DNA from: a virus
IMG/VR virus record: IMGVR_UViG_3300046006_003901
Coordinates: 1 to 21,166 of that record
Length of the DNA stretch: 21,166 nucleotides
Reading direction: 5' to 3' (one strand)
The stretch's first letter is position 1, and every line of letters starts with the position of its first letter. The notes under the pieces were generated by a model. The model ran no database searches. It saw only the letters and a program-made list of their open reading frames with translations, and was not told the DNA's origin. Both the position numbers and the translations under genes were made by a program. Below are positions 5,487 through 19,932 of this stretch, piece after piece.

Positions 5487-6320
5487 CTAAAAGCTGACAT
5501 TTCCTGTGCCAGATATCAAAACATAAACCTTGAAGCCTGATGTAGTAAAAGTTGGAGGTTCTCTATTTCCAGAACCATCAATATCTTCATCGTCATCTTG
5601 GCTAAGAGTTAGTCCAGAACCAAGTATCATATTTGGTATTGTATTTGGATATCTAAGTATTACAACGCCAGATCCACCATAGCCAGAGCTAGCCCTATTG
5701 TTTACACCACCTTGGCCACCATTTCCAGTGTTTTCAGCTCCAGTAGCACCGCCTCCCACAGCAGAGGCTGAATAGTTTCCTGCTCCACCAACTCCTCTTG
5801 TAACGGAAGTTCCAGTAATTGAGCTAGCAAGACCTATACCTCCAGCACCAGCGGTTGTTCCTACGCCAGCTCCACCAACTCCTCCAGCACCACCACCACC
5901 ACCAGAAGCTCCACCACCGTTAGCATTTCCTCCAGCAGTACCTTGTCCAGCTGTACCAGAACCTCCAGTACTAGCACCACCAGCTGCTGGATACCCTGCA
6001 CCACCACCAGATCCACCAGATGTTCCGTTAGCAGAGCTGGGGACTCCACCTGCTCCACCACCAATAGCAGTAATGGAATCAAATATTGAATCACCACCTG
6101 GAGCTGCGGGGCCAGCGGCACCAACTGTTACGATATAGGACTTGCTTCCCTCAATGGCATAACCAGAAGCTGTTAGATAACCACCAGCACCACCACCACC
6201 AGTTCCAGTGTTGGTATAGGCTCCAACAGCAGTACCACCACCACCACCACCTGCAATGACTAAATATTCAGCATTAAATTTAATCCCAGTGCTCAGCAAA
6301 GCGCTCAAAACACCAGACAT
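5487..6320 (-). CDS. Glycine-rich tail-fibre adhesin
   Basis: A 277-residue protein. After a short N-terminus (MSGVLSALLSTGIKFNAEYLVIAGG) comes a glycine-rich region at about residues 23-215 with many GGGGG and GGxGG runs and intervening Ala, Ser and Asn. It continues with YGGSGVVILRYPN, an acidic linker (SQDDDEDIDGSG) and a C-terminus ending FKVYVLISGTGNVSF. The YLVIAGGGGGG start, GSGVVI-RYP block and final tGtgnvsF-type strand are typical of glycine-rich phage tail proteins. Related glycine-rich adhesins (for example the gp38 type of some T4-like phages) fold their glycine runs into polyglycine-II sandwiches that carry receptor-contact loops. Whether this protein folds that way is inference. 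The ATG at 6320 overlaps the upstream stop by one base (TAATG). The DNA has dense ACC/CCA triplet runs from the glycine codons, a likely site of recombination. Confidence 0.8.
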   Translation of the reverse strand: MSGVLSALLSTGIKFNAEYLVIAGGGGGGTAVGAYTNTGTGGGGAGGYLTASGYAIEGSKSYIVTVGAAGPAAPGGDSIFDSITAIGGGAGGVPSSANGTSGGSGGGAGYPAAGGASTGGSGTAGQGTAGGNANGGGASGGGGGAGGVGGAGVGTTAGAGGIGLASSITGTSVTRGVGGAGNYSASAVGGGATGAENTGNGGQGGVNNRASSGYGGSGVVILRYPNTIPNMILGSGLTLSQDDDEDIDGSGNREPPTFTTSGFKVYVLISGTGNVSF

Positions 6321-7291: not shown

Positions 7292-8107
7292 TTAATTTAC
7301 TATGTCTACCCAGGCTGTTCCATTGTATCTTTTAAAAGTGCTAATATTTACCCACTGAGTTCCACTATATCTTTTTCCAATAACCAGATCAGTTGCCATG
7401 TTTGTACCATTGGACCTATTCCCTGGTGGATTAACAGTTAAGGTTATTTCTGAGCTGAGGGTCGTTCCTCCACCGCCAGTTGCACTCACTTTAAAAGTAT
7501 AAACACCAACTGCTTCTGGCACTCCGCTTAGCTGACCAGAACTATTTATTGTTAGCCAGGCGGTTGGGCTTAAACCAGTTCCAGAAGCTACGATAGAATA
7601 GCCGCTTGCGTTAGAGGCAGCAACCGTTCTGTCTGTAGCAGTGCTAAAATTTATTGTTTTTATCCAAGTTGTTGTAATGGCTTGATCTAAAAACGATGGA
7701 GCTGGCGTTGCTGCTGGCGCTGATGTAGTAAAGCTAAATGAAACAGTTGCGCTTCCAACGTTTCCAGTGGTCGAAAAAGTCGCATTTATGTTATAAGTGC
7801 TTCCAGCCGCAAGTCCACCTGTTGTATTTGAAAATGTTACACCAGATTTTGGAAAAAATGCGTTAGAAACAATAGTATTGCTACCAGTGGTTCCACCAAA
7901 GTCATAAGACTTGTTACTGTGGTCACTTAGTTGACTTACACCATTAACGTTTACTGTTAATGTGGCACCAGAAAAACCATAACCACCATAGCTTGAATTA
8001 CCGTCAGTAACGGTTGCTGACCAAGTGACACTACTGGTTGATACGCTATTAACGTTTAGTATTAATTTAGCTCGGTTTCTAACATCATTGGTTAGTGCTT
8101 CTGGCAT
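7292..8107 (-). CDS. Modular tail adhesin: beta-sandwich, He_PIG-type Ig domain and W-x-G C-terminal repeats
   Basis: A 271-residue protein. Residues 10-130 are beta-rich with SYGGYGFSGATLTVNVNGV, like the N-terminal half of 19156-19932 and reminiscent of DUF859-type phage structural domains. Residues 137-227 look like a putative Ig (He_PIG) domain: WLTINSSGQLSGVPEAVGVY followed by TFKVSATGGGG. Residues 245-271 hold two copies of a 13-14 residue unit, KRYSGTQWVNISTF and KRYNGTAWVDIVN. Such short terminal repeats are frequent on phage fibre proteins. The gene shares its architecture, but little straightforward identity, with 19156-19932, so the two are probably diverged paralogues or products of module shuffling. 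Its ATG overlaps the stop of a 20-codon micro-ORF (TAATG). Confidence 0.75.
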   Translation of the reverse strand: MPEALTNDVRNRAKLILNVNSVSTSSVTWSATVTDGNSSYGGYGFSGATLTVNVNGVSQLSDHSNKSYDFGGTTGSNTIVSNAFFPKSGVTFSNTTGGLAAGSTYNINATFSTTGNVGSATVSFSFTTSAPAATPAPSFLDQAITTTWIKTINFSTATDRTVAASNASGYSIVASGTGLSPTAWLTINSSGQLSGVPEAVGVYTFKVSATGGGGTTLSSEITLTVNPPGNRSNGTNMATDLVIGKRYSGTQWVNISTFKRYNGTAWVDIVN

Positions 8108-9924: not shown

Positions 9925-10920
9925 TTATAGCATCTTTGATACTTTTTTAAGATCTCTTAAAAAGCTTTCTTTGCTTCTGTCCACGTTTGGAATAGCTATA
10001 TATGTATGGTTTTTTAGTACTGAGAAGGTTTTGTAAAAGTTGTGAATCTCCCACTCGTCTCCGCCATCATTTCCACATACTCCAAATTTTATTGGACAAA
10101 CTATTTCTATCAAAGTTTGACCTGGTTTCATAAACATTGAGCTTGTTAGACCTGATCCAGCATACCCAGCAAAAACACTGACTTGGTCAAAAAACTCTAT
10201 TTGTTTCTTAAGGCTGCCAAAAGACTCGCCATTGACCACTTCAAATCCTATAGACTCAAAAAACTTTTCTGCATCCTCTTCATAAGTGTGCCTAGTGTCT
10301 GTGCTATCTTTGTGAACATCCTTTTTTCTAGATAAGAAAACTTTTTTGTTTGGAACAGAGTCTTCTGACAAGCCAGCAAAACCTTTTGCACTTTCGTATA
10401 TAAAATCTAGAGAAATTCCAATATCATGTTGATCAATTACCGTTGAGTTGTTAACTCTAATATAAGTTTCAAATAAATTATTTGCTTTGTTAGCTTGATT
10501 TATAGTCACATAAGAGATTTCTATTTTATCTCTAAAGGTGTCTAAGCAGTAATTTAAAAATGACTCAAACTCTTTAACGGTTGGCTGCTTTTCTTCAAGC
10601 TCTAATAAAACAAGCTCTACTTTTTTAATATTGCTTTTTATACAGTTTTCTAAAAAAACAAAAATGTTTCCAATAAAATCTGGAAAATAATGAAAATAAC
10701 TATTTGGGATTTGAATTAACCCCTTAAAGTTATCGTTTATTACTTCTACAACAGCTTTTTCGTCTACAATGTCTGGGACCTTGGTGTCAAAATAGGAATT
10801 CATAAGTGTGACTTCTTTATTGAAACAATCTTCCGAAAACAATACTTTTTCATTTATGTGAACGGCGAAACTTGTTTTGTCATGAATGTGAAAAAAGTCA
10901 TATTTGTTATTTGTAGTCAT
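9925..10920 (-). CDS. GT61-type glycosyltransferase (paralogue 1)
   Basis: A 331-residue protein whose C-terminal half matches the pattern of GT61 (DUF563) glycosyltransferases: KKVFLSRK at 192-199, then EKFFESIGFEVV, then LKKQIEFFDQVSVFAG, then AGSGLTSSMFMKPGQ at 254-268 followed by TLIEI, and HNFYKTFSVLKNHTY at 293-307. Family members transfer sugars (for example GlcNAc or xylose) from nucleotide donors to glycans or to Ser/Thr. In the usual motif the residue before the GAGL core is often His; here it reads YAGSGL, so donor or acceptor may differ. There is no signal peptide or membrane anchor, so it should act in the cytoplasm. It follows a 51-residue Cys protein after a 24-base gap and has no clear SD. 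It is the last gene of the cassette. Confidence 0.75.
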   Translation of the reverse strand: MTTNNKYDFFHIHDKTSFAVHINEKVLFSEDCFNKEVTLMNSYFDTKVPDIVDEKAVVEVINDNFKGLIQIPNSYFHYFPDFIGNIFVFLENCIKSNIKKVELVLLELEEKQPTVKEFESFLNYCLDTFRDKIEISYVTINQANKANNLFETYIRVNNSTVIDQHDIGISLDFIYESAKGFAGLSEDSVPNKKVFLSRKKDVHKDSTDTRHTYEEDAEKFFESIGFEVVNGESFGSLKKQIEFFDQVSVFAGYAGSGLTSSMFMKPGQTLIEIVCPIKFGVCGNDGGDEWEIHNFYKTFSVLKNHTYIAIPNVDRSKESFLRDLKKVSKML

Positions 10921-10944
10921 TTTATTCTAAACAGCTTTTGCCTG

Positions 10945-11100
10945 TTATGAAAAGCTTGCTCCTTTATGTTCTGGGCCAAATTTTATTTGACAAACGTTAC
11001 AGGTTTTAGACTTAAACCTTGTTACTGGGCATTGAGCTACAGTAAGCTCGTGTCCTTTTAGTTGGCATATTAAGGATTTTACTATTTTAATAATTCTCAT
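10945..11100 (-). CDS. Small Cys-containing protein, possible zinc-binding, unknown function
   Basis: A 51-residue gene that fills most of the gap between the GDPD-like gene and a glycosyltransferase gene. It reads MRIIKIVKSLICQLKGHE, then CPVTRFKSKTCNVCQIKFG and ends GASFS. Cys residues at about 12, 24, 34 and 37 and a His at 17 form a C-x4-H ... C ... C-x2-C layout that could bind zinc, similar to tiny zinc-ribbon proteins seen in phages. The start is supported by a GGTATAAT box six bases before the ATG at 11100, with a TAGACA -35 seventeen bases upstream of the hexamer; no SD is present. Function is unknown. Confidence 0.65.
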   Translation of the reverse strand: MRIIKIVKSLICQLKGHELTVAQCPVTRFKSKTCNVCQIKFGPEHKGASFS

Positions 11101-11106
11101 AATTAT

Positions 11107-11135
11107 ATTATACCTCAAAAAAATCCAGGTGTCTA
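11107..11135 (-). promoter_or_regulatory. Promoter with -35 and -10, leaderless, for the small Cys gene and GT61 paralogue 1
   Basis: On the minus strand TAGACA (11135-11130, one mismatch to TTGACA) is followed by exactly 17 bases and TATAAT (11112-11107). Six bases then lead to the ATG at 11100. It is the most complete sigma-70-type promoter in the window and predicts transcription starting at the ATG. Confidence 0.65.
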
Positions 11136-11139
11136 TAAG

Positions 11140-11580
11140 TTAATCTTGTATAGTTTTTACGTAGTCACTGCATATGCCAAAAGCAACGCAGGGAGATGGT
11201 ACCGCTTCTTGATCCTTGAGAACAAGAATAGACTTATCAGTAATTGGCTTTCCTGGATAGGTCCAGATTAAACCATTGCTTGTTAGGGTGTAGCTATCTT
11301 CTTCATGCCAGAAGTATTTGTAGTTTTCTTTGAGATTGACGAAGTATTCCAGTGCCGCTAGATTTTTGCAATGAATCCAAAGACTGTCTTTATATCTATC
11401 AAGAAAGGTTTTAGATGTGAAATATTGAGGCTCATCATGTCCTAGCCAAAGTTGATTATCTATTAAACGAATATCAACCTCTACGTCAAAGCCTGCATAG
11501 ATTGCTTCTTCAATATAGAGTGGGTGGTTTTCTCTTGGCGATGGGCCTTTAAGGTTTCCTCTGTGAGCTATCTTTAACAT
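11140..11580 (-). CDS. Short GDPD-like (glycerophosphodiester phosphodiesterase fold) protein
   Basis: A 146-residue protein starting MLKIAHRGNLKGPSPRENHP. It keeps the signature residues of the GDPD TIM-barrel family: H6-R7-G8, E17-N18, E34 and D36 in FDVEVDIRL, and H48-D49 in LWLGHDEP. Family enzymes cleave glycerophosphodiesters or act on related phosphodiesters, using a metal bound by the Glu/Asp/His set. It is much shorter than the usual 230-250 residues, so part of the barrel is lacking or minimised. Members of this short type appear near surface-polysaccharide genes. Here it sits among glycosyltransferases, which suggests a job on a glycan or glycerophosphate decoration. It has its own leaderless promoter (TGCTATAAT, six bases before the ATG). 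Activity is not assured. Confidence 0.75.
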   Translation of the reverse strand: MLKIAHRGNLKGPSPRENHPLYIEEAIYAGFDVEVDIRLIDNQLWLGHDEPQYFTSKTFLDRYKDSLWIHCKNLAALEYFVNLKENYKYFWHEEDSYTLTSNGLIWTYPGKPITDKSILVLKDQEAVPSPCVAFGICSDYVKTIQD

Positions 11581-11586
11581 ATTTTA

Positions 11587-11595
11587 ATTATAGCA
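11587..11595 (-). promoter_or_regulatory. Extended -10 promoter, leaderless, for the GDPD-like gene
   Basis: TGCTATAAT on the minus strand, hexamer at 11592-11587, then TAAAAT and the ATG at 11580. The six-base distance leaves no room for a ribosome binding site, so the mRNA should start at the ATG. No convincing -35 was seen. Confidence 0.55.
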
Positions 11596-11613
11596 TTAAC
11601 AATTTTATTTTAA

Positions 11614-12501
11614 CTAAAGCTCTATATTATCAAGCTTGGCTTTAACCAGTTCTGCTTGTTTTTCTGAGTTTAAGACAACAAGATATGTGTGATTTTTTAA
11701 AAGTGCCATTTCCCTATAGTGATCGTGAATGCCATAAATAATATTTTTGGTTTCATGATCAGACATAGTAAAGCCAACCATTACCTCTGTCAATATTTCA
11801 ACGACTTTTTGATTTTCTTGCAAAAAAATCAAACTTGTTAGCCCAGAACCACTTAGCGCTGCCAAAGTTGAGCAAGAATTAAAAAGCTCAAACTGTTCTT
11901 TAAATGTAGGTATATCTTCTGGATAGACTATTTGAAATCCTTTTTCTATAAAATAATTTTCTAAGATTTCTTCATTGTCAACTCTTATATCGTGACTTGA
12001 ATAATTCTTCCTACTAATATATATTTTTTTATTTGGTGTTTCTGTAACCATATTATACTTATTTAAAAGATAATTATATAAAAGTGGAACACCAGTATTA
12101 AGGTCTGCACCATTTATTGGAATAAAGTTTTTTGCATTTAGGTATGTAAATTCAGAGTTGTTTAGTTGCGTATAGCTAATACCACGTTCTTCTAAAAGTT
12201 CTATCAGCAAGTTGTCAAAATTTTCTTCTCCAGATCTCAAGTTAAGATTGCATAAAACAAAATGAAGTCCTTCGTGGCTTACTTCTTCTAGCACCATAAG
12301 GGCTGGCATCATAAGGTTTATAAGAAAATGATGATAGTTTGACTTAGAGTCCATTATTACATATGTTTTATTGTCTTCTAAAAAGTTTATAGAGCTAGGG
12401 CCTTCTGGGGAATAACCTGGTTCAAAATCACAAAACGATCCCAGGGTGTGCAGGTTTATGTTGTGAATCTCATTTACTTTTTCTAGTCTATCGCAAACCA
12501 T
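11614..12501 (-). CDS. GT61-type glycosyltransferase (paralogue 2)
   Basis: A 295-residue protein with the GT61 C-terminal pattern: KKIYISRKNYSSHD at 158-171, ENYFIEKGFQIVYPED, FKEQFELFNSC, LSGSGLTSLIFLQENQKVVE at 216-235, and LLKNHTYLVV near 268-277. It is the shortest and most diverged of the three GT61 copies. The Gly-Gln-Thr of the other two copies after the GSGL motif is replaced by QENQKVV. The ATG at 12501 is preceded by GGAAGGTAGG, though at a longer than usual distance (about 18 bases from GGAAGG), so the exact start is less certain. Upstream lies a hairpin and a promoter. No signal peptide or membrane anchor is visible. It probably transfers a sugar to an unknown acceptor in the same pathway as the other copies. 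Confidence 0.72.
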   Translation of the reverse strand: MVCDRLEKVNEIHNINLHTLGSFCDFEPGYSPEGPSSINFLEDNKTYVIMDSKSNYHHFLINLMMPALMVLEEVSHEGLHFVLCNLNLRSGEENFDNLLIELLEERGISYTQLNNSEFTYLNAKNFIPINGADLNTGVPLLYNYLLNKYNMVTETPNKKIYISRKNYSSHDIRVDNEEILENYFIEKGFQIVYPEDIPTFKEQFELFNSCSTLAALSGSGLTSLIFLQENQKVVEILTEVMVGFTMSDHETKNIIYGIHDHYREMALLKNHTYLVVLNSEKQAELVKAKLDNIEL

Positions 12502-12528
12502 GATGTTTTCGCTAGCCTACCTTCCTAT

Positions 12529-12561
12529 AAAACTAAAGGGCCGTTGTGCCATCTTTAGTTT
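12529..12561 (-). terminator. Hairpin with T-run: probable intrinsic terminator overlapping the next promoter region
   Basis: The minus strand contains AAACTAAAG (12561-12553), then AT, GGC, a six-base loop ACAACG, GCC, and CTTTAGTTT (12538-12530), then TTA. This gives 12 base pairs with a 2-base bulge and a T-rich 3' side. It lies 27 bases past the stop of the HAD/nucleotidyltransferase gene, right for ending that transcript. It directly abuts the downstream TATAAT (12568-12563), so it could also act as an operator or leader structure for the next unit. The stem is AT-rich, so efficiency is uncertain. Confidence 0.5.
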
Positions 12562-12562
12562 A

Positions 12563-12571
12563 ATTATACCA
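12563..12571 (-). promoter_or_regulatory. Extended -10 promoter for GT61 paralogue 2 (leadered)
   Basis: TGGTATAAT on the minus strand, hexamer at 12568-12563. The gene start at 12501 is 61 bases downstream, so a leader of about 55 bases is predicted, unlike the neighbouring leaderless units. The 9-bp inverted repeat that forms the hairpin at 12529-12561 begins two bases after the hexamer. Confidence 0.5.
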
Positions 12572-12587
12572 GCATGTTTGTTATTTT

Positions 12588-13937
12588 TTACAAGACATCG
12601 TTAGATGGCTGTGTCAAAAATTTTTCTAAATCTTCTGGGGTTCCTAGACCATACATAGCATCTACAAATATGGGCAAGATTCTTTTATTATCTTGAATTG
12701 CTTCGTTGTACACTGGACAGATATAGAATTCATTGTTTACCCTGATATTTTTATTAATCATCTGTTCTGCATACTTTACGTAGTCAGAGCCTTTTGTCCA
12801 TCCGTAGATCCCCGTGCTGGCATTATTGCTTATAACTACTTTTTCTGCTACCTCTACAATCCTATTATTTTTAATTTTTGCATAAGACCACTTTTCTTCA
12901 TTAGCTAGAAATAGAGCCATATTTCCATCAGACCCCATCTCAAGTAATTGAGACATAAACTCTGAACTATCCCAATCTAAAAGCTGATCAGAGTTTGCAA
13001 TTATTAGTGGTCTCTGGTTGTCTATATACTGTTTTGACAGCAAGGCTGTTCTAGCTGCCCCGTCAGTTACTCCGTCTACCTGTATGATTTTACATCCTGG
13101 AACAAGTCTTGTAAGAACAACTTCAAGGTTGTATCTTTTATAATGCTCAGCCTGAACAATAAAAATATAGTTTCCAGGGATCTCAATGTTTTCAACCACC
13201 CTTTGAATCATTGGCTTTCCATCAACATCAATTAATGGTTTTGGGTCTTTATATCCAGCATTAAAAAATCTAGAGCCGTTTCCTGCCATTGGTATTAATA
13301 TATTTGGAAAACTGTTAGGTGTCAAAAACTCTATAGCTTTGGATATATAGGATAGCGAAATGTCTTTTCTTTCTGTTACTGGAAACAGCTTTGCCAAAGA
13401 TGCTTTTGCTGCTGCCTGGCCGATTTCGCTGTCTTCAAAGATTATAGTTGTTTCTGCAGAAGATCCTAGCAAAGACATCATTGTTTTATAAATTTCTGGA
13501 TTTGGTTTTGGATTAGAAACATCTTCGTTGCTGAGGGCATAGTCTACAAATTCATAGACCCCTAAACTTTTTAAAGATCCAACAACTGTCTCTCTTATGG
13601 CATTACTTGCAACACCAATCTTTATGCTAAATGACTTTATAAGTTTAAATAAATTTATTAGCCCTTGATCTTTATCAAATACCTGAAACATTCTTGATGA
13701 ATAGATTTGTTTCTTTTCCCATATAACATTATGAAATTCTTTTGGCAAACCCTTAGAGTATGAAAGAATGTCTAGCTTTGCCTTTGTGCTAAGCCCCTCA
13801 TAGGTCAAAGCCTGCTCTTTTTTAGATATTGCATAAGAGCTATCTATTTCAGATAGGGCAAGATTCAGGGCATCAAAGTGAATCTCTTTACTGTCTATCA
13901 GAACACCGTCTAGGTCAAAGATAAAAGCATTATTCAT
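12588..13937 (-). CDS. Fused HAD-family phosphatase and sugar-phosphate nucleotidyltransferase
   Basis: A 449-residue two-domain protein. Residues 1-205 are a HAD hydrolase of the beta-phosphoglucomutase/phosphoglycolate phosphatase class: D8-x-D10 in FDLDGVLIDS (nucleophile and acid/base), S111 in GVASNA, K144 in NPKPNPE, and E168-D169 in FEDSEIG. Residues 211-449 are a nucleotidyltransferase: IPMAGNGSRF (215-224), DPKPLIDVDGKPMIQ (231-245) and NSD (315-317) for metal binding, with GIYGW and FVDAMYGLGTPEDL later. This pair would dephosphorylate or isomerise a sugar phosphate and activate it as an NDP-sugar, the donor for the neighbouring glycosyltransferases. All key residues seem intact. 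I chose the ATG at 13937, which overlaps the upstream stop by eight bases; a longer frame reaches 13979 but adds a tail foreign to HAD proteins. The exact sugar is unknown. Confidence 0.82.
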   Translation of the reverse strand: MNNAFIFDLDGVLIDSKEIHFDALNLALSEIDSSYAISKKEQALTYEGLSTKAKLDILSYSKGLPKEFHNVIWEKKQIYSSRMFQVFDKDQGLINLFKLIKSFSIKIGVASNAIRETVVGSLKSLGVYEFVDYALSNEDVSNPKPNPEIYKTMMSLLGSSAETTIIFEDSEIGQAAAKASLAKLFPVTERKDISLSYISKAIEFLTPNSFPNILIPMAGNGSRFFNAGYKDPKPLIDVDGKPMIQRVVENIEIPGNYIFIVQAEHYKRYNLEVVLTRLVPGCKIIQVDGVTDGAARTALLSKQYIDNQRPLIIANSDQLLDWDSSEFMSQLLEMGSDGNMALFLANEEKWSYAKIKNNRIVEVAEKVVISNNASTGIYGWTKGSDYVKYAEQMINKNIRVNNEFYICPVYNEAIQDNKRILPIFVDAMYGLGTPEDLEKFLTQPSNDVL

Positions 13938-15018
13938 CTGACCTATCCAAAAATGTTTTAATTCTGTGATCTTTTTCAATTTTGTCGTTCAAAACCTCAA
14001 AACTTCTTTCATTATTATGAATTCCAAAATAAGTGTGATCTTTGTAAAATGCTAAATTTTTGTAAAAATTATGAAGCTCTTGTGTGTAATAGGGATCTGT
14101 TATATCTTTTGGACGTCCAGGAACTCCAACTGGAACTACGAGTGGCGTAATAATTTCAATAAGTGTCTGTCCTGGTTGCATAAAAGCTGCATTAGCTAAA
14201 CCTGATCCAGTTATTGACGCCAAAACTTTTGTTTCATAAAAAAGATCTAGCTGTTCTTGAAAAGATTCAAGCTCTTCTGTTTTAACAATTTCGTAACCCA
14301 TGGACGCAAACAGATTGTCTAGTTTTTCGTGATCATCCATTCTATCGTCGTTAGAATAAGATAATGTTGGTGCGTCATAGTCTCTTCCAGTTGTTAAAGA
14401 TCTACTAATAAAAACTTTTCTGGTAGGCTTAGCTTTTGGGTTAGAAAGTCTAATTTTAAAGAAGTCATAAACTAGGCTTGCTTTTCTAATTGACTCAAGA
14501 TCGTATTTTACTACCCTAAAATTATTCATATAAATAATGTCATGTTTTTTTAAACTAACAATTCTATATTTTATTTTTTTTATCTTTAAGGTTTCTAAAA
14601 AATATAGAAATACGTTATGATACATAAAGCCTTGGGCGGGGTCTTGTTTAAGTGATTCATTCGTTTCGCTAACGTCAATAATTAGTTCATGTTTTGGATA
14701 TGACTCTATTGCATAGATTACTTCTGATATATTGTCTAACAATGAATGATAAAAACTATTTACCATAGATATAACTAGCTTGTTTTTATTGCTTAAGATA
14801 TTTAAAGTTTTTTTGGAGCTTGAGTCTATATACCCAGAAATCATGTTTATATCTGGCATAAAATAAAAAAGGTCATCACTTGTTTCAGCAACAACGTTTC
14901 TTATTGTATAAACTCCCTCAAAATAGTCTAGCCTGTCGTACTGTTCCATATCGGACATTTCTATGGTTTTAACAATATTGCTTCTTTTTCTTAAGAAAAA
15001 ACTTAGAGGGTGTTTCAT
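13930..15018 (-). CDS. GT61-type glycosyltransferase (paralogue 3)
   Basis: A 362-residue protein, the longest GT61 copy. The C-terminal half has KVFISRSLTTGRD at 201-213, EKLDNLFASMGYEIV, FQEQLDLFYETKVLASITG, GSGLANAAFMQPGQTLIEI at 271-289 and HNFYKNLAFYKDHTY at 316-330. It shares the last two blocks closely with paralogue 1 (HNFYK and HTY match). The N-terminal half (residues 1-180) is variable and likely binds the acceptor. The N-terminus MKHPLSFFLRKRSN is basic and slightly hydrophobic but too short for a clear anchor. The start is one base after the preceding stop. It is followed by the HAD/nucleotidyltransferase gene with an eight-base overlap, so donor synthesis and transfer are translated together. 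Confidence 0.77.
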   Translation of the reverse strand: MKHPLSFFLRKRSNIVKTIEMSDMEQYDRLDYFEGVYTIRNVVAETSDDLFYFMPDINMISGYIDSSSKKTLNILSNKNKLVISMVNSFYHSLLDNISEVIYAIESYPKHELIIDVSETNESLKQDPAQGFMYHNVFLYFLETLKIKKIKYRIVSLKKHDIIYMNNFRVVKYDLESIRKASLVYDFFKIRLSNPKAKPTRKVFISRSLTTGRDYDAPTLSYSNDDRMDDHEKLDNLFASMGYEIVKTEELESFQEQLDLFYETKVLASITGSGLANAAFMQPGQTLIEIITPLVVPVGVPGRPKDITDPYYTQELHNFYKNLAFYKDHTYFGIHNNERSFEVLNDKIEKDHRIKTFLDRSDE

Positions 15019-15019
15019 T

Positions 15020-15361
15020 TTAATTGGTCTTTTCTTGACGGGACTTTAGTAGAGCTTCTATAAACTCTGTACTTCCTAGGCAAAATGGAATGTTTTTTGT
15101 TTTCCAGTAAACATTAAATTTGTTTCCTACGCAAAAAGATAAAAACCAAGATAGAAATTCTGAGTCAAATAAAGTATCATCCATTTCGTTTGCTTGTAAA
15201 TATCCAAAACCATCTACGTCTTCTAGAGAAATAAAAGCTTTAATAAGCGACGGCTTAAAGTGTTCTGGAACAGCCTGATCTATTTGCCAAAAACAAAAGG
15301 TCTTTGGCCCTAGCTTGCATTCTGGACATTCTCCACAAATTCTTTTTTTATTTTTTGCCAT
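15020..15361 (-). CDS. Small protein with N-terminal Cys cluster, unknown function
   Basis: A 113-residue protein starting MAKNKKRICGECPECKLGPK. Four Cys at residues 9, 12, 15 and 23 (C-x2-C-x2-C-x7-C) suggest a metal-binding knuckle, zinc being the simplest guess. A Trp/Phe-rich second half follows (EFLSWFLSFCVGNKFNVYW) with a basic C-terminus (SRQEKTN). The ATG at 15361 overlaps the upstream stop by one base (TAATG), so I prefer it to a longer start at 15385. It lies between an uncharacterised-family gene and GT61 paralogue 3, with one base before the latter. I do not recognise the family. Small zinc proteins inside sugar cassettes could be regulatory or accessory, but that is a guess. Confidence 0.65.
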   Translation of the reverse strand: MAKNKKRICGECPECKLGPKTFCFWQIDQAVPEHFKPSLIKAFISLEDVDGFGYLQANEMDDTLFDSEFLSWFLSFCVGNKFNVYWKTKNIPFCLGSTEFIEALLKSRQEKTN

Positions 15362-16014
15362 TAGGAATATTTCTTTCTTGTCCAAAAATGTTTCTTGTAA
15401 TAGCCAAAAGGAGGATTGTGCATCGTATGCGTAAAAGCTGGAAGTTGATAGCTTAAAGAATCTTCTACACTTGAAGACCAGCTTTCTCTTTTAACTGGTA
15501 TGGCTTGAGCAATTGGTGTTCCTGCTGGAATAATACCAACAAAATCTTTCTTAATTAGAAATGGAAAGTTTACTTCCACTGGAAATTTGTCTGTATCTAC
15601 AAGTCCAGAAAAACTGTAAAATGGCAAATCAATTCTGTTTATTGGGTGAACAAATAGTGTGCTGTATCCCTTTGGTGTTTTTAGTATAAAAGAATTTATC
15701 CATTTATAAACAGTATTGAAATACTCTGGGGTAATTTTTAAATTGCCAATTTGAGCATCTGCGTGAGATTCAATAACGTGACTTACAGATATGTCTTGTA
15801 CAACACCCCTATTAAAAAATACATCTGCGGCAAGAGTAAGCGTGTATCCTGCGGTCATAGAGTCAAGAAGTGGAACACATTTTTTTAAAGTTTCAATTCC
15901 CTCTACAAATGGCTTAGATGTTCTGTACCACTCTGGAATAGCCTTATAAGCTGGTACTGGATGTGGAATGTCTAAGTCTGGATGAACTGATCTAAAACTA
16001 ATCTTCTTTTTCAT
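15361..16014 (-). CDS. Uncharacterised protein, paralogue A of a C-x-P-x-LDSM family
   Basis: A 217-residue protein. Shared blocks with 16380-17069 are PEWYRTSK (residues about 27-34), LKKCVPLLDSMTAGYTL (about 43-59), TPKGYSTLFVHPINRIDLP, VDTDKFP, IPAGTPIAQAIPVKRESW and a terminal YYKKHFWTRKKY. The layout (Cys-Pro then D-S-M, a G-Y strand, a TP-G-ys-L-P-N-R segment, then an aGTPiaQ-P-kR end) reminds me of DUF6065-type proteins, from memory only. No catalytic triad is obvious; it is soluble and beta-rich, like cupin or jelly-roll proteins. The ATG at 16014 lies inside the last codons of the preceding gene (17-base overlap). Its stop overlaps the next start (TAATG). Function unknown. Confidence 0.65.
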   Translation of the reverse strand: MKKKISFRSVHPDLDIPHPVPAYKAIPEWYRTSKPFVEGIETLKKCVPLLDSMTAGYTLTLAADVFFNRGVVQDISVSHVIESHADAQIGNLKITPEYFNTVYKWINSFILKTPKGYSTLFVHPINRIDLPFYSFSGLVDTDKFPVEVNFPFLIKKDFVGIIPAGTPIAQAIPVKRESWSSSVEDSLSYQLPAFTHTMHNPPFGYYKKHFWTRKKYS

Positions 16015-16378
16015 TTTGCACCTTTGGATAAAATTTTCTTTTATTGTACCACATACCCTTTTTTACAAGCTGGGTTTGTGGGTTATAAGGAACTAGTTTT
16101 ATATTTTTGCTTAAAATTTGATCTGCAGTTTCTTTATTGATCCTAATTAGCTCAAGGACAATGCCTTCTTTATTAATCAGGGCTATATACTGCAATGGTA
16201 AATCTCTTAGTCTGTCCTCTTCTAAGGTCCAAGTTGCTCCTTCTGGAATAACTGGCTGCTTACCTTTTTGTAAGTTAAATAGCTTTACTCTTAAAATTTC
16301 TAGCAAAAAACTTTTTATGGTTGGTCTATGCTCGTTTAAAAGATTTTCATAAATTTGTTTTTTAGTTCTTTGTCTCAT
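15998..16378 (-). CDS. Unknown 126-residue basic protein between two paralogues
   Basis: The protein starts MRQRTKKQIYENLLNEHRPT and is basic, with a helical first 35 residues. A middle segment (PEGATWTLEEDRLRDLPLQY) is followed by LINKEGIVLELIRIN and a basic tail (GMWYNKRKFYPKV). I do not recognise a family. It starts one base before the end of the upstream paralogue gene (stop at 16380-16382, ATG at 16378) and overlaps the next by 17 bases, so it is certainly co-translated with both paralogues. A TATAAT hexamer encoded by the last two codons of the upstream gene lies just four bases before this ATG. This may be coincidence. A helper role for the flanking paralogues is suggested only by its position. 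Confidence 0.6.
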   Translation of the reverse strand: MRQRTKKQIYENLLNEHRPTIKSFLLEILRVKLFNLQKGKQPVIPEGATWTLEEDRLRDLPLQYIALINKEGIVLELIRINKETADQILSKNIKLVPYNPQTQLVKKGMWYNKRKFYPKVQNEKED

Positions 16379-16379
16379 C

Positions 16380-17069
16380 TTAATTATAGTCTTTTCTAAT
16401 CCAAAATAATTTTTTGTAGCTTTTTCCTGGAGTTCTTACAGTGGCCCCTTGTAAAGTGTCTAGATAAGCAATGCCTTGGTCATTCTGAATAGATTTCCAA
16501 GATTTTCTTTTGATTGGTAAAAGTTGTGCAAAAGGTGTTCCTGCTGGGACCATACCCTCAAAATCTTCTCTAACAAAAAATGGAACGTTTCCGCTAGTTG
16601 AATACTTATCTGTATCCATTATACCAGAGGTAATAGTCCATGGCAAATCAAACCTGTTTAGTGGCTGAACCACTAGCATACTCCATCCTCTAGGAGTTTT
16701 CATTCCCCAGAATCCTCTAAATGCTAAATGATTTGGATAGTGACCAGCTGGCCTAGGAATTTTTTCCCCTAGATCTTTTCCTCTTTCGGCTATAAAATCT
16801 TCCAAGTCTTGTACAGAATTCCACCTAATGTTTAGGGAACCATCTTCGTTTTTTGAAATAAAAATGTCTACTGGTGTTACTAACATGTAGCCACTAATCA
16901 TTGAATCTAAAAACGGAATGCATCTTTTAAGTCCAGAGTGTTCTTCTCCATTTTCGTCTATGGTTACTGTCTCTGAATCTTTATACCATTTTGGCAAAAA
17001 CTTTTTTGCTGGTTGAGGCTGACCCAGCCCCATATATTTTTTATTTGAAAAAAATCTTATAATTTTCAA
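16380..17069 (-). CDS. Uncharacterised protein, paralogue B of a C-x-P-x-LDSM family
   Basis: A 229-residue relative of 15361-16014: LPKWYKDSE, LKRCIPFLDSMISGYMLVTP, TPRGWSMLVVQPLNRFDLP, MDTDKYS, VPAGTPFAQLLPIKRKSW, and a final YKKLFWIRKDYN. The N-terminal PKWY and C-terminal KRKSW blocks are strongly shared, so the family is defined by these two plus any outside members. The start is TTG at 17069, one base past the upstream stop, with AGAGGG four to ten bases before it; internal ATGs would cut the conserved N-terminus. This is the first gene of the glycan cassette, directly after the Ser/Thr-rich repeat protein. Function unknown; it is probably soluble, with no signal peptide. Confidence 0.65.
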   Translation of the reverse strand: MKIIRFFSNKKYMGLGQPQPAKKFLPKWYKDSETVTIDENGEEHSGLKRCIPFLDSMISGYMLVTPVDIFISKNEDGSLNIRWNSVQDLEDFIAERGKDLGEKIPRPAGHYPNHLAFRGFWGMKTPRGWSMLVVQPLNRFDLPWTITSGIMDTDKYSTSGNVPFFVREDFEGMVPAGTPFAQLLPIKRKSWKSIQNDQGIAYLDTLQGATVRTPGKSYKKLFWIRKDYN

Positions 17070-17070
17070 T

Positions 17071-18642
17071 CTACCCTCTTTCTATCTTTACAGAGCTTCC
17101 AATCTCGCTATTTGTATACTCTGCTTTTGATATTGATATCCCGTATCTTGTATTTATTATAACACCTGTAGCGTTGTAAATCAAGTCAGCTCCAATTTGG
17201 GTAATAGGGGTTATGTCTGAAAAGGCTTTGGCTGTAATTTGATTTCCAGAGGTTTGAACAATAATAGATTTAATTGTTTGTGCAGTAGAGACTATTGCGG
17301 AAGAGATTTCTGACACAGTGTCGCTTACTGACTGAGATATTCTCAATATGGCCGCATAAGCAAAACTTTCTGGTACAAGGTTAGAAGTGTAAGAGCTAGC
17401 TGACGAATAGCTAGTTCCAGCAGTGTAGGATATTGCAGTAGAAAAAACAAGATCTGCAAAATAATTTGTAGCAGAAGAAAAAGTTGAAGCACTTGAATAT
17501 GGAGTGGCAGAACTAAATGGAGTTGTAGACGTAAACGCAGTTGCTGAGGAAAAAGTTCCTCCTGGTGCAAGAGTATAAAACGTGTCAGATGTGTAGTTGT
17601 CTAGTCCAGCAGTATAAGTTGGTGTTGCTGAAGTATAGGTTGTTATTCCTTCGGAATAAGTTGGTGCTGATGAAGTCCATGATTGGGATGCTGTAACACC
17701 GTTAACAACTGATGTCCAGGTTTGAGCTAAGTTCCAAAAATCTTGTCTAGACCAGGTATTTCCTAGTGAGGAAAAATATGCAGAAAAATAGCTTGCCGCC
17801 GAAGTCCAAGTACTTCCAGTATATGCTATAGGAGCAGTATTTTTTCTTGTATATCTTCTTGTAAAGTTTGCATTTCTAGAAAAGTTTTGAGTATAGCTAG
17901 TGGCTGATCTTGTATAGGGAGACCACCTGTTATATGAATTTGCTAAAGTAAAATTAGCAAATGAAGTGTAAGCATTATTTTGACTAAAATAAGCTTGTGC
18001 ACTTGAAAATGGGGCAACAGAACTAAATGGCTGCAAGCTAGTAAATGGAGTGCTTGATGAAAATGTTGGGGTAGAAGAATAAGTATCTACAGATGAGGTA
18101 TAGGTATCTAAACCAGCAGTATAACTTGCTATTCCAGAAGAATATTCTGCTGGTAAAACAGAGTATGTAGCAACTCCCGCAGAATATGCATCAACAGCAG
18201 TAAAACCTGCCTCTGAAGAGGTATAGGTAGTGTCCATTGTGTAAGATGCCATGCCACTAAATGTTGCTGGTGCAGAAGTATAGTTAGTGGCTGCTGGAAT
18301 GGTATTATAAGACGAATCAACAGATACCATCCACCAGTCAGCACTTGTTTGTACCCATAAAGCTACACCAGAACCAATATCAGTATCTTCTAGAGTAATG
18401 ATGTTATTTTGTGTTGGCATGTTGATTACTGCGATTGGATATTCGCTACCAGCGTCTGCTGGCTGGGGTACGTAATTAGCTACAGCTTTACCACTCAGAA
18501 CCGTAATTATTTTTGAAATAGCTTGCCACTGACTACCATCACTAGCAGTACCTAAAGATCCAATAGTATTAGCTCTAGCTGAAAATATATCTATAAAGGT
18601 TTTTCTTACAGATGCTGCTATACCTAAAAATACTTTTCTCAT
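17071..18642 (-). CDS. Ser/Thr/aromatic hexa-heptapeptide repeat fibre protein with ConA-like N-terminus
   Basis: A 523-residue protein starting MRKVFLGIAASVRKTF. Residues about 17-112 look like a LamG/ConA-type beta-sandwich (FSARANTIGSLGTASDGSQW ... SADWWMVSVD). Residues 121-418 are a repeat array in which an aromatic is followed by two Ser/Thr (F/Y-S/T-S-x-x-P) every six or seven residues. The C-terminal 105 residues (ESFAYAAILRISQSVSDTVS ... IKIERG-like end) look helical then beta. A basic stretch (NRWSPYTRSATSYTQNFSRN, about 238-257) interrupts the array. I do not recognise the repeat. It should be a fibre or spike shaft and is exceptionally rich in potential O-glycosylation sites. The ATG at 18642 overlaps the upstream TGA (ATGA) and has AGGAG ten bases before it; a longer start at 18669 is less likely. 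Confidence 0.75.
   Translation of the reverse strand: MRKVFLGIAASVRKTFIDIFSARANTIGSLGTASDGSQWQAISKIITVLSGKAVANYVPQPADAGSEYPIAVINMPTQNNIITLEDTDIGSGVALWVQTSADWWMVSVDSSYNTIPAATNYTSAPATFSGMASYTMDTTYTSSEAGFTAVDAYSAGVATYSVLPAEYSSGIASYTAGLDTYTSSVDTYSSTPTFSSSTPFTSLQPFSSVAPFSSAQAYFSQNNAYTSFANFTLANSYNRWSPYTRSATSYTQNFSRNANFTRRYTRKNTAPIAYTGSTWTSAASYFSAYFSSLGNTWSRQDFWNLAQTWTSVVNGVTASQSWTSSAPTYSEGITTYTSATPTYTAGLDNYTSDTFYTLAPGGTFSSATAFTSTTPFSSATPYSSASTFSSATNYFADLVFSTAISYTAGTSYSSASSYTSNLVPESFAYAAILRISQSVSDTVSEISSAIVSTAQTIKSIIVQTSGNQITAKAFSDITPITQIGADLIYNATGVIINTRYGISISKAEYTNSEIGSSVKIERG
17389..18282 (-). repeat. Aromatic-Ser/Thr 6/7-residue tandem repeat array (protein-level, 18/21-bp)
   Basis: Within the 523-residue protein, aromatic residues fall at 364, 370, 376, 382, 388, 394, 400, 406, 412 and 418, exactly every six. 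Another six-step run is 188, 194, 200, 206, 212 and 218, and seven-step runs are 153/160/167/174/181/188 (first two steps six or seven) and 329/336/343/350. Each aromatic is usually followed by Ser/Thr-Ser/Ala. Sequence is variable between units, so DNA identity is modest and the array is a fold-level repeat more than a recent expansion. Confidence 0.75.
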
Positions 18643-19058
18643 AGTACAAGGTCTCCTGCTAGCACCCAAACATTTTCAGCTCTTTTAATCAGGGTAGCAG
18701 AAGACCATTGTGCTCTTAGTTTAAGTCCTGGTGTTGCATTTATGGTAACGCTGCCGCTTACTGGAGCTATTGTTGTTTGCCCAGTTCCAGTCTGCAAAAT
18801 GTTTATTTGGCTTCCTATTGGAAATGCCTCTGAAGAATTAAGAGGAACCGTTAAAGTGTTTGCACTTGAAGAATTCATTTCAACAAGTTTATCTTTGTCT
18901 GACAAAACCAGGGTATGAGAAGCAGTTTTTTCAACTATTAAAAGTGTTGACCCAAAACCAGAAAACTCCCAAAAGACACCAGTCCATTTCCAAGTCCTAC
19001 CGCCAACAACAAATTCGTCATTTACGGTGGGGGAATCTGGAAAATTAATAGCAGCCAT
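18639..19058 (-). CDS. Small tail-fibre/structural protein with W-x-G N-terminal motif
   Basis: A 139-residue protein starting MAAINFPDSPTVNDEFVVGG, then RTWKWTGVFWEF, a signature of phage fibre and tail proteins (FPdsPtvnD ... W-W-G-W). A beta-rich module follows (LVLSDKDKLVEMNSSSANTL, PIGSQINILQTGTGQTTIAP, SATLIKRAENVWVLAGDL), a spike/carbohydrate-type fold ending in W-x-L-AG. The same type of terminal module is in 6320-7255. It is leaderless: TGGTATAAT ends seven bases before the ATG and no SD is present. Its TGA stop overlaps the next ATG (ATGA). It is probably a component of the same fibre as the 523-residue repeat protein. Confidence 0.75.
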   Translation of the reverse strand: MAAINFPDSPTVNDEFVVGGRTWKWTGVFWEFSGFGSTLLIVEKTASHTLVLSDKDKLVEMNSSSANTLTVPLNSSEAFPIGSQINILQTGTGQTTIAPVSGSVTINATPGLKLRAQWSSATLIKRAENVWVLAGDLVL

Positions 19059-19090: not shown

Positions 19091-19159
19091 TTATAGCGGC
19101 TTAGGGTATTTCGTTTTTACTGCTAGACCACTAATACTGCCAACAGTTAATTCACTCAT
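19091..19159 (-). CDS. Micro-ORF of 22 codons with a fibre-like leader sequence
   Basis: ATG at 19159 overlaps the stop of the 19156-19932 gene in the ATGA fashion. The peptide begins MSELTVGSISGLAVKTKYP and stops at 19091. The MSELTVGSISGLA start looks like the opening of longer phage fibre proteins, so this may be the truncated remnant of a fibre gene whose body was lost. It could instead be a true micropeptide. It is too short for any fold. A promoter for the next gene begins 16 bases downstream. Confidence 0.4.
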   Translation of the reverse strand: MSELTVGSISGLAVKTKYPKPL

Positions 19160-19932
19160 ACAATACTCCAGGAAGATCCATTCCAAACTTTGGTTGTTGA
19201 AGAAACAAAAGCAGTTCCGTTCCAAACTCTTGTAGTGCCTGAAAGAAAAGCGGTTCCGTTCCAAACTTTTCCGCCACCCAGTACCGTAATTGTTTGTGTA
19301 TCCGTATCTATAGTTCCCTCAAAAGAACCAGTAGCTCTAAGAACAAAATTAAAAACCCCTGGTTCTGTTGGAGTTCCAGTAACAGCACCCGTAGATGTAT
19401 TTAAAGTAAGCCCACCTGGTAAAGCACCACTAAACACGCTATAGCTGGCAGCGTTTGTTGCGTTAACTCCATCTGAGTAAGCAGTCCCTACGCTAGCTGA
19501 GCTAGATACAGTCTGGTCATTCCAAGTTGGAAACCTATTATAGTCTGTAAGAGCAAGAGTACCTGAAACGTTAAAGGTTTGAATAAAGCTGTTAAATGGG
19601 GCAACTTCTGCAAAACCAGTGATGGTTTTAGTTCCATCAGCTGAGTGGGTAACCCAATGATAGCTATCATAAAAGTTATAAACAGCCCCAGAATTGCCAG
19701 TAAGGTTATAAGAAAAAGAACTAAAACCTTGTTCTACACCATTAAGCTGTACAACCCAGCTAGCAGTTCCAGTACCACCATAAGATGCATTGTTATCTCC
19801 AAACCTAGCTCTAAGCCTAATGTAACTTTGATTATTTGCTGGGTCATCTGTTATTTTATCTAACTCTACCTGTAAAAAAGCACGAGCGATGCTGTCAGCA
19901 GAACCAACCGATGTAGCGGTATAAGCGACCAT
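19156..19932 (-). CDS. Modular tail adhesin: beta-sandwich, He_PIG-type Ig domain and three WNGT repeats
   Basis: A 258-residue protein. Residues 1-130 resemble DUF859-type siphophage structural domains (GTASWVVQLNGV; HWVTHSADGTKTITGFAEV). Residues 133-217 look like a He_PIG-type Ig domain: GALPGGLTLNTSTGAVTGTP then PGVFNFVLRAT. Residues 222-258 carry three units KVWNGTAFLSGTT, RVWNGTAFVSSTT and KVWNGSSWSIV. The design matches 7292-8107. Such proteins sit at tail tips or fibres and contact surface glycans; this is inferred. The ATG at 19932 has an AGGGGG ribosome site six to twelve bases before it that overlaps the preceding stop. Its own stop overlaps a micro-ORF start (ATGA). Confidence 0.75.
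   Translation of the reverse strand: MVAYTATSVGSADSIARAFLQVELDKITDDPANNQSYIRLRARFGDNNASYGGTGTASWVVQLNGVEQGFSSFSYNLTGNSGAVYNFYDSYHWVTHSADGTKTITGFAEVAPFNSFIQTFNVSGTLALTDYNRFPTWNDQTVSSSASVGTAYSDGVNATNAASYSVFSGALPGGLTLNTSTGAVTGTPTEPGVFNFVLRATGSFEGTIDTDTQTITVLGGGKVWNGTAFLSGTTRVWNGTAFVSSTTKVWNGSSWSIV
19159..19269 (-). repeat. Three 13-residue WNGT repeats (39-bp tandem units)
   Basis: The last 37 residues of the adhesin are three units of 13, 13 and 11 residues with W-N-G-[TS]. At the DNA level GGAACCGCTTTTCTTTC-like and GGAACTGCTTTTGTTTC-like stretches recur after a TTTGGAACGG-type core on the minus strand. The final unit diverges (SSWSIV). Tandem units like this can expand or contract by slippage and so alter receptor contact. 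Confidence 0.7.

Follow-up and report, generated by a model that had tools for sequence, protein, structure and literature searches.

A predicted ConA-like phage tail protein with a regular aromatic-Ser/Thr array in one hairpin loop

Introduction

Short-period repeats are found in several types of viral fibre, including the triple beta-spiral shafts of the adenovirus, reovirus and T4 type and the left-handed hexapeptide beta-helices. Their repeats comprise 15 residues or follow the pattern L/I/V-G-x4, have an aliphatic core and lie between an N-terminal and a C-terminal domain. Low-complexity repeats of the RNA polymerase II CTD or FUS type are also rich in Tyr, Ser, Thr and Pro at short periods, although these occur in cellular proteins without shown homology to the protein described here, whose repeat sits inside a lectin-type domain, and the likeness is by analogy only.

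Concanavalin A (ConA)-like or carbohydrate-binding module (CBM)-like sandwiches are carried by some tail-tip proteins of actinobacteriophages. In phage Douge, the ligands of the CFP domains and of BppU-CBM are mycobacterial LAM/AM and alpha-glucan, and the CBMs of gp20 and BppU (gp23; PDB 8zdp, 8zdo) are borne by a trimeric fibre or baseplate protein (PMC13033339). The passages of that account consulted here make no mention of an aromatic-Ser/Thr array. Similar folds are seen in the C-terminal receptor-binding domain of TM4 gp23 (PDB 9n6a), in CBM66 (161 residues) and in CBM2 of the phage J-1 evolved Dit.

Here we describe a 523-residue protein encoded by a viral sequence of 21,166 bases (IMG/VR record IMGVR_UViG_3300046006_003901, positions 1 to 21,166; hereafter the window). 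Its two ends are predicted to form a sandwich of this kind, and its middle is a long array of evenly spaced aromatic residues, most of them followed by Ser or Thr.

A family of putative tail proteins with an insert at one fixed site

The gene occupies positions 17071-18642 on the minus strand, and its layout is shared by 85 distinct relatives. The ATG start at 18642 overlaps the stop codon of the upstream gene as ATGA; an in-frame TTG farther upstream would lengthen the protein to 532 residues. The N-terminal half (residues 1-111; 18310-18642, minus strand) and the C-terminal half (residues 427-523; 17074-17364, minus strand) are both conserved in family alignments. The former has a short basic/amphipathic N-terminus followed by LGTASDGS..W and, farther on, DWWMV, and the landmarks of the latter are AYAAILRISQSV and GNQITAKAFSD. 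Between them lies the insert with the aromatic-Ser/Thr array. The original prediction had located the repeat at 17389-18282, where it is indeed found, but the region is somewhat larger and covers approximately residues 112-426, a length of some 315 residues (17365-18309, minus strand).

Parsing of IMG/VR proteins with separate profiles of the two halves identified 85 distinct complete family members, defined by the conserved halves and a hairpin insert of more than 80 aa. The window protein scores 147 bits with the N-half HMM and 127 bits with the C-half HMM, and its insert measures 321 aa by HMM boundaries. In all members (85/85) the insert is at the identical site and is 83-409 aa long; conservation among relatives is confined to roughly the first 111 and the last 97 residues, and the part between them differs in both length and content. 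The Cys content of the inserts is bimodal, with none in 21 members and about 5% or more in 64, and three classes can be distinguished: Cys-rich (64), Cys-free irregular (12) and regular 6/7 array (9). In a tree of the flanking halves, rooted arbitrarily at the midpoint, the regular arrays form one clade (support 93) within a Cys-free clade (99), which is placed among Cys-rich relatives; one Cys-free member, L064, falls outside the main Cys-free clade. On this tree the regular array has a single origin. A change from a Cys-rich toward a Cys-free insert is suggested by the same tree, the direction depending on its arbitrary root. The Cys-rich inserts of L081, L074, L080, L082 and L087 hold short repeats, for example CSSPSYPCGSPSYPC or CNAASYPCNAASYPC, with a seven-residue period, and a short aromatic period thus exists in the Cys class too. 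In some viruses a second family member is present: the two genes lie in tandem in L018 (L018:8491-11506), and a second, more distant ORF of the Cys type with weaker profile scores is present at L008:13147-14280 and L048:8999-10160.

No match to the family was obtained in 50,697 phage records by tblastn with five family proteins, megablast of the window region gave no match, and a family profile scan of GTDB genomes revealed no member, all at the sensitivities used. The window protein, L030, L036 and other insert-bearing relatives have no match to Pfam or NCBIfam above the curated cut-offs or to PHROGs at E 0.001, and the sole PHROG match under 0.001 is that of L061 to phrog_25859, over the extra N-terminus of L061. 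PDB sequence searches returned nothing but a chance match to spectrin, and no account of a split ConA-insert protein type or of DUF6065 was found in the open-access literature searched. The portal protein is 45% identical to those of Streptomyces phages, and WhiB genes are present in 6 of 16 related records; therefore, actinobacterial hosts are likely, and the host of the window virus is probably an actinobacterium. A diversity-generating retroelement was also looked for, and RVT_1 is absent from the window and from the 16 related records, all of which are fragments.

The two halves are predicted to form one ConA-like sandwich

The fold was modelled on the natural relative L030, which has a short Cys-free insert and is 34% identical to the window protein. 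AlphaFold2 with a 51-row alignment gave a pTM of 0.76 and a pLDDT of about 95 for the domain formed by both halves, with 92-98 for most of them: residues 15-112, the counterpart of the N-terminal half of the window protein, range from 83 to 98 and residues 179-280, the counterpart of its C-terminal half, from 92 to 98. The L030 insert has a pLDDT of ~42. For the window protein itself, with an 8-row alignment, the pLDDT is 28. In the L030 model, the N- and C-terminal halves together are one ConA-like beta-sandwich of two antiparallel sheets with the insert in one hairpin. The insert exits from and re-enters at two strands, 97-112 and 179-195, which are long as in a stalk and would pair with each other. 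Solved ConA-like domains are matched across residues 11-280. The highest VIA-align Z scores are those of the Douge central fibre gp20 (17.5), CBM66 (16.3), the TM4 gp23 receptor-binding domain (15.7; 170 residues aligned, 14% identity) and a Douge baseplate chain (15.2), and Foldseek reported a probability of 1.0 to L-type lectins and of 0.99 to CBM2 of the J-1 evolved Dit. In addition, a profile in which the two halves were joined minus the insert runs without a break along an uninterrupted domain of L066/L067 and places the junction within a short hairpin turn (E 0.004, weak on its own). Gordonia gp38, which is encoded beside a relative of the upstream gene, was considered as an insert-free homologue and rejected, as by eye it is not recognisably related.

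The likeness to the described proteins is thus one of fold. Douge gp20 is the best structural match to the L030 model, at about 10% sequence identity, and whereas the Douge CBMs are domains of a trimeric fibre or baseplate protein, the predicted sandwich of the window protein makes up nearly the whole protein. The matched range of the TM4 gp23 chain (248-451) is too short to contain so large an insert, and CBM66 and the J-1 CBM2 are compact and without such a hairpin insert. By analogy with these structural neighbours, the split ConA-like protein may bind carbohydrate, bearing in mind that ConA-like folds are common and that a shared fold is no proof of glycan binding.

The original prediction had also viewed the repeat as a beta-solenoid or a trimeric beta-spiral shaft with an aromatic ladder, and a shaft does not agree with its position. 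The array is inserted in a hairpin loop of the modelled sandwich, and therefore both of its ends return to one place; the known shafts differ in this respect, and none is matched by the array in PDB sequence searches. A trimeric shaft of the triple beta-spiral type was rejected for the same reason, since the array lies inside one domain rather than between an attachment and a head. The assignment of the protein to the tail, in contrast, is supported.

Regularity of the array and what it may form

The spacing of the aromatic residues is as regular as first described. Ten of them follow each other at a spacing of six (F364, F370, F376, Y382, F388, Y394, F400, Y406, Y412 and Y418, numbered from the ATG), with one extra aromatic, F395, within the run; a second spacing-6 run is formed by Y188, F194, F200, F206, F212 and Y218, and seven-residue runs are found at residues 153-188 and 322-350. 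Within the stretch originally claimed, 34 of the 54 distances from one aromatic to the next measure 6 or 7 residues, as compared to a mean of 6.6 and a maximum of 18 in 20,000 composition shuffles, and the longest spacing-6 chain has ten members, against nine in any of these shuffles. Ser or Thr follows 45 of the 56 aromatics (shuffles: mean 21, maximum 34). In the other proteins of the window, 0-17% of aromatic spacings are 6 or 7. The consensus is Y-T-S-G-x-T-T for the seven-residue unit and [YF]-[TS]-S-[AN]-T-P for the six-residue unit. It differs from the hexapeptide pattern [LIV]-[GAED]-x2-[STAV]-x and there is no Pfam hexapeptide match; nor was any other described repeat family matched, as had been foreseen.

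The array is arranged in two blocks, each composed of seven-residue followed by six-residue units and joined by an irregular linker richer in Trp and Arg. This order of sevens, sixes, linker, sevens and sixes again is broadly common to the regular-array clade, including relatives whose overall identity is just ~40%. When aligned with each other, the two halves of the window insert score 215, as compared to 132 +- 12 (maximum 159) for register-preserving shuffles; most other members show a lesser excess, which the largest shuffles also reach.

Tandem duplication of DNA could give rise to such a pattern as a by-product that has little function. When DNA was scanned for five or six [YF][ST][ST]xxx units, at least 223 matches were obtained in viral and cellular contigs, and the top-ranked matches inspected, family members apart, look like identical-unit minisatellites in chance frames among the matches listed. 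The window array has a different character. Its neighbouring units have on average only 48% of nucleotides in common and hence it is not a recent minisatellite, and TRF detected only two weak short arrays in its DNA. Across the nine array members, 150 of the 197 six-residue units and 117 of the 134 seven-residue units are distinct, and the aromatics are conserved as other sites diverge. We therefore regard an origin of the pattern as a mere duplication by-product as very improbable.

Selection was estimated from comparisons within a set made up of the window protein and the three distinct relatives nearest to it. The dN/dS ratio is 0.27-0.39 for the insert and 0.04-0.16 for the halves (0.04-0.12 for the C-terminal half). 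The aromatic positions of the insert retain the same class in 96% of comparisons, as opposed to 57% for Ala and an identity of 52% at the remaining, mixed positions. Since the aromatic class is kept while the rest changes fast, the register is under selection, with the spacer residues comparatively free.

What structure this register would serve can be read in two ways. The insert may be extended and largely disordered, a "sticker" comparable to low-complexity Tyr/Ser regions or to the RNA polymerase II CTD heptads, which would have no fixed fold and whose regularly spaced aromatics would provide many weak contacts or let tails associate with one another. It is nearly uncharged (3.5-6.6% charged residues), consists of 38% Ser/Thr and has Pro before the aromatic in 30% of the six-residue units, and the low pLDDT of the L030 insert points in the same direction. 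A two- or three-unit super-period, as expected of a solenoid, was not found in the six-residue units (~2 SD at lags 1 and 2, none beyond). However, an aromatic content of 18% together with so strict a register would be unusual for a purely disordered linker, as would the retention of the two-block architecture in distant relatives. We hold this reading to be a real possibility, short of an even chance. Alternatively, the insert could carry an aromatic ladder within a beta-solenoid, a beta-spiral or a stack of hairpins that projects laterally or apically from the lectin domain. Here T-T-Y-T strands would alternate with S-G or N-x turns, which fits the 40-48% of beta-branched or aromatic residues and the conserved aromatic register, and the homologous inserts are Cys-rich, like disulfide-stapled beta structures. 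On the other hand, mixed six- and seven-residue units and Pro at position -1 are ill-suited to a uniform coil, and the missing super-period also argues against it; an ordered fold of this type is a tentative proposal that we find somewhat doubtful.

Neighbouring genes and the sugar module

The gene directly upstream (18639-19058, minus strand) is of the tail-fibre type according to PHROG tail and virion structural matches. Its C-terminal module (..TPGLKLRAQWSSATLIKR..WVLAGDLVL) is 46-49% identical to the C-termini of Gordonia minor tail proteins. Of the 61 relatives in which an upstream ORF could be recognised, nearly all have the module before the family gene, with start-stop offsets between the two genes of mostly -10 to +1. 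A He_PIG Ig-like domain protein (19156-19932), a protein that looks Ig-like but has no Pfam match (7292-8107) and a Gly-rich PF21722 protein (5487-6320) are also encoded among the tail genes, and the portal gene (1-990) is located downstream of the fibre genes.

Downstream follow two genes for phrog_7084 (DUF6065-like) proteins, protein A (16380-17069, minus strand; PHROG E 3.2e-39) and protein B (15361-16014, minus strand; PHROG E 9.5e-40). The match of protein B to PF19541 (DUF6065) is weak (E 0.0019) and under the gathering score. Between them lies a gene for a small conserved protein of 126 aa (15998-16378, minus strand), which by inspection has the same position and a similar start in L008, L009, L011 and L015-L018. 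The small protein has no PHROG or NCBIfam match and only a sub-threshold one in Pfam (E 0.09), and no PDB match was found for it or for the phrog_7084 pair. Of the 70 loci with enough sequence, which are related and not independent, 64 have one or two phrog_7084 genes just after the family gene. These genes follow in all Cys-free loci, L008 being counted as Cys-free although a second, Cys-type ORF shares its locus, and are present in 16 of 17 records, the exception being at a contig edge. The phrog_7084 pair is thus a constant genomic partner of the split ConA-like gene. In the L007 record (G004:C1:19053-19751), the phrog_7084 match crosses an in-frame TAA, perhaps reflecting a frame boundary at the match edge and not a broken gene. 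Relatives of phrog_7084 also occur in haloarchaeal tailed viruses, in one case near a thymidylate synthase gene.

Starting ~2 kb downstream of the family gene, and on the same strand, the window encodes three GT61 glycosyltransferases (Pfam PF04577) at 13930-15018 (minus strand; E 4e-15), 11614-12501 (E 3e-18) and 9925-10920 (E 2e-12). The sugar module (9925-15018) also includes a fused HAD phosphatase/sugar nucleotidyltransferase (12588-13979). A protein encoded at 11140-11580 resembles a glycerophosphodiesterase by eye and has no Pfam match. L008 carries a similar gene set. It had been suggested that the array is a good candidate acceptor for these enzymes, and the Ser/Thr residues could accordingly be modified so that the tail bears a glycosylated brush shielding the virion. 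The proximity of the three GT61 genes and the fused enzyme is consistent with this reading, as is the presence of GT61 in records that contain regular arrays, namely those of L004-L008 and L022. However, across the family the expected co-occurrence is not seen: GT61 is found in 6 of 22 family records and in 8 of 70 gene neighbourhoods. It is absent from the 32-60 kb fragment records of L011, L016 and L017, whose arrays are equally regular, and in L011 and L017 no glycosyltransferase was seen in the stretch that separates the array gene from the portal gene. Three relatives of the Cys type, L140, L142 and L143, whose inserts are very long (298-386 aa when delimited by HMM), likewise have GT61 ~1.6 kb downstream. 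L015 and L018 have weak GT2-like genes instead. As GT61 is present in few loci, and GT2-like genes or none in others, the glycosyltransferase link is a trait of some lineages, and the role of the array as a GT61 acceptor is unlikely.

A proposed role in host adhesion

Taking these observations together, we hypothesize that the window protein is a tail receptor-binding lectin, or adhesin, with a tip loop turned aromatic-hydroxyl array, an explanation that as a whole we consider reasonably probable. A ConA-like, CBM-type beta-sandwich would be placed at the tail tip beside the fibre protein of the upstream gene, a location suggested by the gene order and by the structural neighbours. One beta-hairpin of the sandwich would be prolonged into a stalk, with its loop bearing the long insert. 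The commonest form of the insert is Cys- and Tyr-rich, and one lineage is without any cysteines; in the sub-lineage of the window the insert would have expanded to about 50 aromatic-Ser/Thr units of seven and six residues in two blocks. With their even spacing, the aromatics may stand in for disulfides as a stabilising ladder, a view based on sequence and the tree only. The Ser/Thr and aromatic surface could make many weak contacts to glycans on the host surface, and the array probably helps the phage to adhere to its host. The two phrog_7084 proteins probably aid the folding, assembly or modification of the split ConA-like protein, as their constant association with it would suggest. A more far-reaching proposal is that the two-block array is a new kind of repeat that replaces a disulfide-stapled Cys-rich insert and depends on the dedicated DUF6065-like pair for its folding or modification, and this we put forward as a possibility on which we remain sceptical.

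Conclusions

The proteins described here form a large unnamed family of predicted phage tail lectins in which one fixed loop bears a hypervariable insert, and no member of it was found in the phage records or genomes searched. The family ties the uncharacterised phrog_7084/DUF6065-like genes to these putative tail lectins. It also provides a natural series on one scaffold, from Cys-rich through Cys-free irregular inserts to the regular aromatic array, and this series makes the proposed replacement of a disulfide-rich loop by an aromatic repeat directly testable.
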